Positions 26,817-31,897 of a stretch of 64,000 nt of DNA are shown piece after piece. The notes below the pieces were generated by a model. That model worked only from the letters and a program-made list of their open reading frames with translations. It was not told the DNA's origin and did no database searches. Source of the DNA: Changchengzhania lutea (GTDB taxonomy: Bacteria; Bacteroidota; Bacteroidia; Flavobacteriales; Flavobacteriaceae); contig NZ_CP039456.1 of NCBI RefSeq assembly GCF_006974145.1, forward strand, positions 3,162,499 to 3,226,498, read 5' to 3'. A program made the translations under genes and the position numbers. Each line of letters starts with the position of its first letter. Position 1 is the stretch's first letter.

Positions 26817-26853
26817 TTTTTTAATTTAAACCTGTCCCTTTTTTTATTATTTT

Positions 26854-26902
26854 CAACCAAGAACCAAGAACCAAGAACCAAGAACCAAGAACCAACAACC
26901 AA
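26854..26902. repeat. Seven-copy heptamer tandem array between moaCB and moaA
   Basis: Seven consecutive 7-base units: CAACCAA, five copies of GAACCAA, then CAACCAA. The array is 49 bases long, is free of indels, and ends at the base before the moaCB stop codon (26903-26905 on the - strand). It contains no reading frame. Confidence 0.9.
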
Positions 26903-27814
26903 CTAATCATGTCTAGCACCTTGTAGAATTCTGAAAATGTGTAAAACTGATGGAAAAATAGCATCCATAGATTCTTTGGCACCGTTTGTTGAGCCTGGTA
27001 AGGCCAAAATTAAGGTGTCTTTTATAGTGCCAGCGACACTTCTTGATAACATGGAGAATGGCGTTCGGTCTTGTCCGTAACTTCTAATGGTCTCCTCAAT
27101 GCCAGGTATTCTTCTATCCAATAATGGTAGCAACGCTTCTGGAGTTACATCACGTCCGGAAAGCCCTGTTCCACCGGTGTAAATAATTAAATCGACACCG
27201 CGTTCTTGAAACGTTTTTGCTTTTTCTTGAATATCATGAATTTCATCAGGGATAATAATATAATCTTCAATTTTTACATCACAGGATTCTAATTTCTCTA
27301 TAATTGCCTTTCCAGCTTTGTCTTCTTTATGTCCTGCCGCAATAGTATCAGAACACACAATAACGACTGCTTTTAAATCTTTTCTAAAACGGTCCCTGAA
27401 ATCAGATTTGCCACCTTTTTTGTTCAATAGTTTTATAGCGTGAATTTCGATGCCTTTATCAATTGGCTTAAGCATATCGTACATATTTAATGCCACCACA
27501 CTGGCACCATGCATCGCCTCAACTTCAACACCTGTTTTATAAATGGTTTTTACAGTGAATAAAACGATAATTTCCAATCCATTAATATCGTACTCTACAC
27601 TGGTAAATTCAATAGGTAAGGGATGACAGTCTGGTAGAATATCTGGTGTTCGTTTTACCCCTAATAATCCTGCCGCTTTGCTCATGGCGAATACGTTCCC
27701 TTTTGGGACAGTATCGGTTTGAATAGCAGTAATCGTTTCAGGTTTACTAACCTTTACAATGGCTTGGGCTACTGCGGTTCTTAATGTTGTTGCTTTGTGT
27801 GTGATATCGACCAT
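26903..27814 (-). CDS. moaCB: Bifunctional MoaC-MoaB fusion protein
   Basis: A 303-residue fusion. Residues 1-~148 are MoaC (cyclic pyranopterin monophosphate synthase), with KAAGLLGVKRTPDILPDCHPLPIEF and GVEVEAMHGASVVALNMYDMLKP. Residues ~155-303 are MoaB/MogA-like (VVIVCSDTIAAGHKEDKAG, IYTGGTGLSGRDVTPEA, ILALPGSTNGAKESMDAI), which adenylates molybdopterin or supports metal insertion. The fusion is common in Bacteroidota. It lies 23 bases from the four-helix-bundle gene upstream, and its stop codon touches the heptamer array. Confidence 0.95.
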   Translation of the reverse strand: MVDITHKATTLRTAVAQAIVKVSKPETITAIQTDTVPKGNVFAMSKAAGLLGVKRTPDILPDCHPLPIEFTSVEYDINGLEIIVLFTVKTIYKTGVEVEAMHGASVVALNMYDMLKPIDKGIEIHAIKLLNKKGGKSDFRDRFRKDLKAVVIVCSDTIAAGHKEDKAGKAIIEKLESCDVKIEDYIIIPDEIHDIQEKAKTFQERGVDLIIYTGGTGLSGRDVTPEALLPLLDRRIPGIEETIRSYGQDRTPFSMLSRSVAGTIKDTLILALPGSTNGAKESMDAIFPSVLHIFRILQGARHD

Positions 27815-27827
27815 AATGTGTTGATTC

Positions 27828-28217
27828 GTTAAATCGTTTATTTGTTTAACTGTGCTTTTCGTAATGCATTAAGCTTGTTAGAAATCTTTTCAATTTCTGT
27901 TCTAAGTATTTGATAATTATTCTTGTCTATAAAATTTAATTCCCTTGCAATAATAATTTGGTTCAAAACTTCCATTAATGAGCTAAAAGAAAGTGTTGTG
28001 AAATGCGCTTTATCCTTGTTGGTCTTTCTTGATGTGCCTTCAGCTAAATTTGAAGCAATAGAAACTGATGCTCTTCTAAGTTGACTTGTTAACCCAAATT
28101 TTTCTTCACTAGGGAAATCTTTTGTTATGATATAAATGAGTTTTATTAATTCCTTAGAATCAATCCAAACATTTAGTTTTTCAAATGAAAATGTGTACGG
28201 CATTTTTACGATTTAAC
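27828..28217. repeat. Inverted repeat pair hugging the first four-helix-bundle gene
   Basis: GTTAAATCGT at 27828-27837 ends at the base before the gene's stop codon. Its perfect reverse complement ACGATTTAAC at 28208-28217 begins 5 bases outside the start codon. Related degenerate words (GTTTAAC, AATTAAAC, CGATTAAAC) extend on both sides. Confidence 0.7.
27838..28203 (-). CDS. Four-helix-bundle protein, S23/23S-rRNA-intervening-sequence family (copy A)
   Basis: A 121-residue, all-helical protein with the family pattern: FEKLNVWIDSKELIKLIYI, FPSEEKFGLTSQLRRASVSIASNLAEG, HFTTLSFSSLMEVLNQIIIARELN and a C-terminal helix. The family is related in fold to the Avd accessory protein of diversity-generating retroelements, but the function of stand-alone members is unknown. 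It sits inside the molybdenum operon between moaE and moaCB without any obvious functional link, and its last codons (QLNK) run into flanking repeat sequence. Translation could be coupled to its neighbours. It may be a passenger of a small mobile unit. Confidence 0.88.
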   Translation of the reverse strand: MPYTFSFEKLNVWIDSKELIKLIYIITKDFPSEEKFGLTSQLRRASVSIASNLAEGTSRKTNKDKAHFTTLSFSSLMEVLNQIIIARELNFIDKNNYQILRTEIEKISNKLNALRKAQLNK

Positions 28218-28248
28218 AATTAAACATATCCACGATTAAACAAAACAA

Positions 28249-28692
28249 TTATGTGTTTATTTTCCACTGATGTGAATCATCTTCAAATATCTCTTTTCCA
28301 AAAACAGGCGCATGTGCTTTTATTTCTTCAACTATATATTCCAAAGCTTTAAAAACCACTTTTCGTCTTGGAGAGGATACAAATACAAATAGGCAAATTT
28401 CTCCAGCTTTCACGGTTCCTAAACTGTGATAGATATGCATACAAATAAGTTCAAATTTCTCAAAAGCAGCTTCCCTGATTTCATGAAATTTTTGATTGGC
28501 CATATCCTCATAAGCTGTATATGTTATGGCGGCTACTGTTTTGTTTTCTATAACATCGGCACGTACTTGTCCTAAAAATATGTTGTGAGCGCCTATGCTC
28601 GTTTTTGTTTGATGTTTGTATATAGATTTTCCAATAAATTCAGAAGAAATAGCACCTTGGTGAAATACGTTCTTTGGTTTTTTATCTTTCAT
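28249..28692 (-). CDS. moaE: Molybdopterin synthase catalytic subunit
   Basis: A 147-residue MoaE. It has GAHNIFLGQVRADV at the dimer region, AITYTAYEDMANQKFHEI, CMHIYHSLGTVKAGEICLFVFVSSPRRKVVF and IKAHAPVFGKEIFED, with the conserved Lys near the active site. It transfers sulfur from MoaD to cyclic pyranopterin monophosphate. MoaD lies two genes upstream on the same strand. Confidence 0.94.
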   Translation of the reverse strand: MKDKKPKNVFHQGAISSEFIGKSIYKHQTKTSIGAHNIFLGQVRADVIENKTVAAITYTAYEDMANQKFHEIREAAFEKFELICMHIYHSLGTVKAGEICLFVFVSSPRRKVVFKALEYIVEEIKAHAPVFGKEIFEDDSHQWKINT

Positions 28693-28710
28693 TGTCTTTT
28701 ATTGTTTTAG

Positions 28711-28739
28711 ACCTACAAGGTTGGTTAAACCTTGTAGGT
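28711..28739. repeat. Palindromic repeat, copy 1 (between moaE and moeB)
   Basis: Perfect 12-base arms ACCTACAAGGTT and AACCTTGTAGGT around a 5-base loop. A second copy lies 20 bases away inside the moeB coding region. Confidence 0.8.
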
Positions 28740-28754
28740 TGTTCTTTAATGGTT

Positions 28755-29837: not shown

Positions 29838-29910
29838 TTGTCGTTATAATTGTTTGTTTATTGATTTGTGTAACCGATTTAACGACTAAACGAATCCACT
29901 ATTTTGATAA

Positions 29911-31453: not shown

Positions 31454-31459
31454 TTTTTG

Positions 31460-31512
31460 AGTGCCTAAAGTTATAAGTGCCTAAAGTATTTAAAGTTATA
31501 AGTGCCTAAAGT
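31460..31512. repeat. Three direct copies of AGTGCCTAAAGT beside the second four-helix-bundle gene
   Basis: Copies at 31460-31471, 31476-31487 and 31501-31512, joined by ATAA or TTTAAAGTTATA-like spacers. The third copy runs into the gene's stop codon at 31506-31508. Inverted partial copies occur on the other side of the gene (TTTAGGCACT at 31863-31872, and ACTTTAGTGCACTTATAACT around 31888). Confidence 0.85.
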
Positions 31513-31853
31513 TTGTTTGAGATAGAAGTAAAAAGTGCTAAAAGTTCTTTTGCTTCATTCATTGTCGAATTCAATACTTCATTTTTTAGCCCATTAAAAT
31601 CTTTAATTATTTCCAGCCAATATTCAGTTTCACTAGCTTCACTTTCAGATATTTTATTTTTGAAATCCCTTTTACTCCGAGATCTATTTGCTTCACGATA
31701 ATTTGCCCCAATGCTAGTACCAGACTTTGTAATTTGGTTGCGAATAACGTTTCCTTCAATCGTGTTGGGTAAGCTAGTCGATAGTTTGATAATCGATATT
31801 CCAAATTGCCTTGTTCGATATTCCAGTTTCTTTGCAAAATCCTTGTTCTCCAT
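31506..31853 (-). CDS. Four-helix-bundle protein, S23/23S-rRNA-intervening-sequence family (copy B)
   Basis: A protein of 115 residues from the ATG at 31853 (the frame also opens 6 codons earlier with GTG inside the flanking repeat). It has the family pattern FAKKLEYRTRQFGISIIKLS, then GNVIRNQITKSGTSIGANYREANRS, then FKNKISESEASETEYWLEIIKDF and a final helix. It is clearly different in sequence from copy A at 27838, so the two are not a recent tandem duplication. It lies between the ModE-like gene and tauE and is bounded on both sides by inverted copies of one repeat. Function unknown. Confidence 0.88.
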   Translation of the reverse strand: MENKDFAKKLEYRTRQFGISIIKLSTSLPNTIEGNVIRNQITKSGTSIGANYREANRSRSKRDFKNKISESEASETEYWLEIIKDFNGLKNEVLNSTMNEAKELLALFTSISNKL

Positions 31854-31897
31854 AATTTGAATTTTAGGCACTTTAAATAGTTGTAACTTTAGTGCAC

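Follow-up and report, generated by a model that had tools for sequence, protein, structure and literature searches.

The window, the 64,000-nucleotide stretch of Changchengzhania lutea DNA analysed here, carries in the gap between moaE and the neighbouring moaCB fusion an insertion made up of an S23-family (S23/IVP) gene and two inverted arrays of a short-period word. The best explanation overall is a compact mobile unit of about 415–445 bp that settles in intergenic gaps and is related, as a free-standing form, to the intervening sequences (IVS) of 23S rRNA, a reading to which a probability of roughly three in four is given. From the comparison of loci and junctions, it is very likely that the gene and its two arrays represent one inserted unit.

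The S23 element in the moaE–moaCB gap

The S23 gene interrupts the order moaE–moaCB, as the preliminary description had stated, with moaE and the moaCB fusion on either side. That description had also placed inverted repeats at both ends of the gene, and they are present: GTTAAATCGT (27828-27837) abuts the outer side of the stop codon, and ACGATTTAAC begins at 28208, 5 bases beyond the ATG. An exact inverted match of at least 10 nt at equal spacing was found at 0.2% of 1,500 random window positions. The 10-mer ACGATTTAAC alone is unremarkable, with 17 copies in the genome vs 15 for the reversed control and no enrichment in the window, and reading the inverted repeat as a single word was abandoned on this ground. 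Longer arms (27821-27853 and 28216-28248) are 79% complementary over 33 nt and consist of arrays of a word of about 8 nt, GTTTAANN. The upstream arm has the degenerate words GTTTAATC and GTTTAATT of about 8 nt, the inverted form lies downstream, and the whole gap is filled. The inverted repeat of the preliminary description thus stands, as the weak edge of a larger feature: what is repeated is an array of 6–8-nt words and not a single 10-bp inverted repeat. The 5' arm was delimited by sequence, by arm comparison and by the period of 8, which is found at all five sites of this subfamily; the 3' arm matches it inverted, and the same arms occur in relatives L035 and L038.

Table 1. Features of the S23 elements and related arrays in the window.
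Feature	Position	Strand	Description
Whole S23 element a	27815..28248	-	434 nt, fills moaE–moaCB gap
S23/IVP (four helix bundle) gene of element a	27838..28203	-	121 aa; PF05635, TIGR02436
5' arm of element a	28204..28248	-	GTTTAANN-type octamer array, moaE stop to S23 start
3' arm of element a	27815..27852	-	inverted octamer array; overlaps last S23 codons, ends at moaCB ATG
moaE	28249-28692		flanks element a
moaCB fusion gene	26903-27814		flanks element a
Second S23 element b	31454..31897	-	444 nt, between ModE-like gene and TauE-type permease gene; word GTGCCTAAAGTTATAA
S23 gene of element b	31506..31853	-	from internal ATG; PF05635 1.2e-18; ORF list starts at upstream GTG 31871
Gene-less palindromic array	29838..29910	.	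element a word (GTTTAG.CGTT..AATAAAC), between moaD and ThiF-family gene; candidate non-autonomous copy
One-directional heptamer array	26817..26902	.	TTGGTTC, between moaCB and moaA

The word of element b differs from that of element a. Element b is present at modE–tauE in the window and in L247, L248 and L258; array-only remnants are found there in L245 and L254, and nine relatives have a gap of at most 2 nt. The gene-less array between moaD and the ThiF-family gene is a candidate non-autonomous copy of element a. Similar gene-less arrays occupy this junction in L254 and L255, and the gap is at most 5 nt in L246, L250, L251 and L253. This assignment relies on the comparison of relatives, since a search of the window for gene-less pairs by shuffled hairpin score left the array unflagged (z 0.4) and found mainly other hairpins. 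Several relatives have a gap of 0 to -4 nt between moaCB and moaA, and another heptamer (GTTAGTT) occurs there in L253.

Other intergenic repeats were also seen. A palindrome, AACCTACAAGGTTTAACCAACCTTGTAGGT, lies at 28693-28754 between the ThiF-family gene and moaE, and a similar CCTTGCAGG/CCTGCAAGG repeat at moaD–thiF of L244; they form a separate intergenic family that is not short-period. The moaD–thiF gap of L247, L249 and L252 has another common insert (TCATTTCGACC...TTTCGACATGACA), unrelated to S23 words.

Inverted short-period arms at S23 loci

The 4.13-Mb genome has 13 S23 genes or remnants detected with PF05635, some of them split or with stops. Nearly all lie between short-period arrays, L020 being a clear exception and L014 weak; the word varies by locus, and both sides of one gene share a word, inverted. 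The true pairing of arms (upstream flank vs reverse complement of the downstream flank) exceeded all random pairings (0/20,000 permutations). A wider sample comprised 202 S23 loci, drawn from the host family and from the window protein's relatives, 199 of which had sufficient flank and fell by flanking proteins into 51 site groups, mostly of Bacteroidota. Here too the same-locus inverted match beat permuted loci (0/20,000), and 68 of the 199 loci (34%) were above the 95th percentile of cross-locus pairs vs 2.8% of 250 control ORFs from the same loci. Direct arm matches likewise exceed chance, because the arrays repeat. With 12 cyanobacterial plasmid loci, where the same-locus inverted match also beats permuted loci (0/20,000), the flanking inverted repeats that the preliminary description expected around other S23 copies are found in all three sets.

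Mean autocorrelation of the arms peaks at 7 nt (0.418 vs 0.264 elsewhere). The best period is 7 in 33 of the 51 site groups and 8 in 12, and it is 6 in the ffh–folD group. Of the 37 site groups that were scored, 33 have G-rich upstream arms and 35 have C-rich downstream arms; GC-rich heptamers occur at cyanobacterial and Azospirillum S23 loci. Homogenisation of arms within a locus was rejected, as a locus's own arms are no closer than the arms of same-site orthologues (58 wins, 60 losses, p 0.23). Arm mismatches comprise 150 G-U and 190 A-C, and since there is no G-U excess, selection on an RNA stem finds no support and was dropped as an explanation of the arms.

The more alike two S23 proteins are, the more alike are their arrays at different sites, chiefly in the same inward orientation (Mantel r 0.20 over 78 non-redundant loci, 0/5,000 permutations; opposite orientation r 0.05). 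The SFEKLxVW subfamily, to which the window protein belongs, has related GTTTA-type words at five unrelated sites, named from a reading of the neighbours' translations: moaE–moaCB, between two Bat-type (VWA) genes, beside an RlmD-type gene, lepB–WbqC and folE–cysS. Conversely, the thiolase–acyl-CoA dehydrogenase junction and moaE–moaCB each harbour two S23 subfamilies with, by eye, different words. Judged from the loci compared, the word goes with the S23 subfamily rather than with the site.

Filled, empty and remnant sites

Among 30 genomes, the moaE–moaCB gap is at most 4 nt in 16 and 19 nt in one. Three genomes, the window's own included, have the window's S23 at this junction and three another S23, two have remnants, four have array-like sequence only (L031, L033, L041 and, with uncertainty, L043), and one lacks moaE nearby. 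L246, L250, L256 and L261 have practically no gaps anywhere in the moa operon. In the L040 remnant, the arrays still enclose the two ends of the S23 gene. In L245, the 1027-nt gap has an N-terminal S23 remnant and what appears to be a further inserted coding stretch within the old element site. The ftsW–murG and nuoG–nuoH junctions are filled in the window's own genome, and the gene is absent in 29 and 5 relatives examined, respectively, mostly with gaps below 35 nt. Empty sites were also found at the thiolase–acyl-CoA dehydrogenase junction. In the empty sites of relatives, on which the idea of an inserting unit had been made to depend from the start, gene and repeats are missing together; on this comparison of alleles, arrays and gene were gained and lost as one. 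In Flavobacteria, even the closest copies at different sites share only 82% identity, so movement there looks old.

The clearest alleles come from cyanobacterial plasmids. Three Nostoc plasmid loci (L330, L336, L337) share one gene cluster with 91–99% DNA identity. Element A, with CAGGAGT words, occupies junction 1 of L330 and L336, where L337 has about 3 nt; junction 2 is occupied in L337 by element B, with GGGAAAA words and a different S23, and measures about 3 nt in L330 and L336. These loci make near-ideal reciprocal filled/empty pairs. Relatives of element A (79–83%) lie at unrelated sites in L332 and L333, with nucleotide homology bounded by the outer array edges, and one element thus occupies three plasmid sites that are unrelated. 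The Nostoc junctions showed no clean target-site duplication; a possible TTCTA at one of them resembles an array end. S23 elements were also noticed within CRISPR-Cas operons of cyanobacterial plasmids (cas6–cas4 in L331 and L335, cas10–cmr3 in L328).

A gene-less insertion of about 250 nt of element A words is present in L336 and absent in L330 and L337. In 50-kb stretches of two of these plasmids (L345, L346), every period-7 array detected has the word of a resident S23 element, and shuffled sequence gives none. One of these is a gene-less inverted pair (L345:32236-32432) with the word of the resident element. Gene-less inverted pairs sharing an S23 word therefore exist in the sequences compared, one of them polymorphic, and they look like non-autonomous derivatives.

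The S23 protein

The window S23 protein matches PF05635 (9.5e-34, 116.3 bits vs a cut-off of 33.8) and TIGR02436 (7.4e-32, 109.8 bits vs a cut-off of 24). Its AlphaFold model has a pLDDT of 96; the alignment for the model comprised proteins of the window and of the genomes compared, with those of plasmid records excluded. The nearest structures, XCC0516 (2GSC, TM 0.92) and BT_0352 (2RLD, TM 0.78), point to the four-helix-bundle fold, and Avd is also among the structure matches, alone and in the DGR ribonucleoprotein. The family assignment and the kinship with the Avd fold given in the preliminary description are borne out by these profile and Foldseek matches. Profile and structure searches recognised no catalytic domain in S23 and no transposase or recombinase, only S23- and Avd-family matches. 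Gln41, Ser48, Asn52 and Glu78 (Q41, S48, N52, E78) are invariant in S23 alignments of 31 and 23 sequences, and E55 is nearly so; these residues resemble an active site or a closely packed polar site rather than a general surface for binding nucleic acids.

Proposed mechanism and alternative explanations

In the mechanism proposed, the arrays would be the ends of the element, and S23, an Avd-fold bundle, would bind its own subfamily's word as an oligomer; five 7-nt words per arm would suit a five-subunit protein. S23 would then fold or pair the element ends as hairpins and recruit an enzyme, of the host or of a helper, to copy or join the element into the DNA between genes, and gene-less pairs would then move in trans. 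An action of S23 on its arrays is somewhat more likely than not, and the binding half of the model is the one that follows at all closely from the data. The helper step is rather unlikely as drawn, and joining by a host activity is offered as a proposal. No helper enzyme was found that consistently accompanies S23, and searches with PF00078 and PF01797 detected neither a reverse transcriptase (RT) nor a Y1 transposase in 6 of 24 genomes with at least three S23 genes. Carriage by phages was rejected, as phage records gave no match.

Resident S23 genes are under strong purifying selection, with a median dN/dS of 0.11 among same-site pairs and no value above 0.25. This is compatible with host benefit as much as with selfish maintenance. 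Of the mobile or selfish unit postulated in the preliminary description, the inserted unit is supported, mobility is inferred from comparison, and the epithet selfish is not upheld in view of this selection. In the 199-locus set, S23 runs in the direction of both flanking genes at 194 of 197 loci (48 of 51 site groups), and no antisense S23 was found within an operon. Two antisense copies do occur in cyanobacterial operons, between nrdB and nrdA (L329) and among ABC genes (L334). They refute sense-only insertion as a mechanistic rule, and because of them the bias is more likely due to selection for co-transcription; the S23 element is probably transcribed together with the host operon.

Low dN/dS and co-directionality would both be expected if S23 and its stem were a domesticated host device for RNA processing or regulation, vertically inherited and with no current mobility. 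This is unlikely but not negligible, as site orthologues are kept across many genera and IVS stems are RNase III substrates (PMC4990558); against it are the patchy presence, the empty sites, the two subfamilies at one junction, the antisense cyanobacterial insertions and the arms without G-U excess.

A retroelement-like route, in which the element RNA would be bound by S23 as Avd binds to the DGR RT and copied by an RT in trans, would agree with the Avd fold, the sense-only insertion in Flavobacteria and a copy inserted in rRNA. It is quite unlikely, given that 13 of the 24 genomes with at least three S23 genes have no RVT_1 match and that antisense copies occur in cyanobacteria. RT and S23 counts are not clearly linked (rho 0.24, p 0.09), and dependence on RT was rejected for want of a significant correlation. 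Most relatives have at most two RVT_1 matches; the window's genome has 19, many of them identical in score and probably belonging to group II introns.

Arrays might instead arise or spread alone in gaps, and S23 genes home into those whose word they recognise. Array-only sites at the same junctions (L031, L033, L041) agree with this order of events, and the link between word and subfamily would follow from homing too. It is nonetheless very unlikely: the empty Nostoc alleles hold only about 3 nt and no array, moaE–moaCB is array-free in 16 relatives, and the L040 remnant, with both S23 ends between arrays, suits array-only sites that are leftovers.

Movement of a non-autonomous hairpin element by a Y1 (IS200/RAYT-type) transposase, with S23 as passenger or accessory, is likewise clearly improbable. 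The S23 count correlates with the Y1_Tnp count (rho 0.41, p 0.003; uncontrolled for genome size and mobile-element load), and inverted ends and gene-less pairs resemble REPINs. Dependence on Y1 was nevertheless discarded, as 9 of the 24 S23-rich genomes have no Y1 match; the word, moreover, follows S23, and no link to any transposase was seen. An artefact of chance or low complexity in AT-rich DNA between genes, which the weakness of a lone 10-bp inverted repeat might suggest, is refuted by the permutation, control-ORF, random-position and Mantel controls and by the GC-rich heptamers of cyanobacteria and Azospirillum, and its likelihood is practically nil.

Comparison with known systems

The mobile unit preferred here resembles several known systems in part. 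As in REPIN/RAYT, a gene lies between inverted repeats and gene-less inverted pairs with the same motif occur elsewhere in the replicon, but RAYT is a Y1 transposase and S23 a helical bundle without such a domain. MITEs are likewise short gene-less inverted-repeat elements between genes, whereas S23 elements lack transposase-type terminal inverted repeats or a clear target-site duplication and end in tandem arrays. The DGR accessory protein Avd (4DWL; DGR RNP 8UBx) has the S23 fold (Foldseek probability 1.00, TM about 0.78); however, sequence identity is 6–9%, the S23 gene has moa neighbours and no adjoining RT, and neither template nor variable repeats were seen. In the more than 25 years over which IVS elements have been known, no function or means of movement has, to our knowledge, been assigned to them.

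The closest likeness is to the 23S rRNA IVS with an S23 ORF of Coxiella and Leptospira (PMC4990558), which shares protein family, terminal inverted repeats and patchy distribution and is of similar size. An IVS with S23 ORF and terminal repeats, proposed to be mobile, is thus already known: that of Coxiella measures 428 nt and has a 28-bp terminal stem that RNase III cleaves, and its mobility was proposed, not demonstrated (PMC4990558). The elements described here differ in lying between protein-coding genes, in their subfamily-specific short-period arms, and in comprising several families per genome as well as gene-less pairs. The window copy is outside rRNA; among the copies examined only one, L340 of Azospirillum, was placed in LSU rRNA. 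It lies inside the 23S rRNA gene (RF02541) with GGACGGATGACAGAGGACGGAGGACAG before the ORF and CCGTCCTCTGTCTTCTGTCATCCGTCTTCTG after it, inverted heptamers of GGACGGA type. Because these arms are heptamer arms like those of the free-standing elements, the anatomy is the same in rRNA and between genes.

Intergenic heptamer repeats (STRRs and those of TAACTGA, Xanthomonas and Nostoc type) have the same 7-nt period and mostly intergenic location. Tandem 7-nt intergenic arrays form the arms of L328–L335 and the gene-less arrays of L345 and L346, which may correspond to the published cyanobacterial STRR families; the period of the window's element is 8. We know of no established origin for the heptamer arrays of cyanobacteria and other phyla. 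S23 elements of Nostoc relatives have GGGAGTA and CAGGAGT arrays. TAACTGA repeats are treated in passages of PMC4679880, and GGGAATC of Xanthomonas and GGGGA(C/T)T of Nostoc in passages of PMC4692102, where 70–75 convergent inverted heptamer pairs per Xanthomonas genome are given; the passages on these repeats in the two papers name neither an encoded protein nor a cause. A search of the open-access literature returned no paper that connects S23 genes with short-period arrays.

S23/IVP proteins may, as a tentative generalisation, be dedicated mobility factors of widespread minimal elements without known transposase, recombinase or RT. Their bundle oligomers would read 6–8-nt words in terminal arrays. 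Resident copies and gene-less derivatives of these elements would account for the rRNA IVS and for much of the heptamer repeats so far unexplained (cyanobacterial STRRs, Xanthomonas GGGAATC, TAACTGA). If true, this would be a mobile element without a recognised catalytic domain, and it would account for many "four helix bundle protein" genes oddly placed in conserved operons. If IVS and heptamer arrays are one family, each becomes testable through a protein, candidate words, filled/empty pairs and matched gene-less copies. The unit would tie together two old puzzles, the insertions in rRNA genes and the unexplained 7-base repeats across bacterial genomes.
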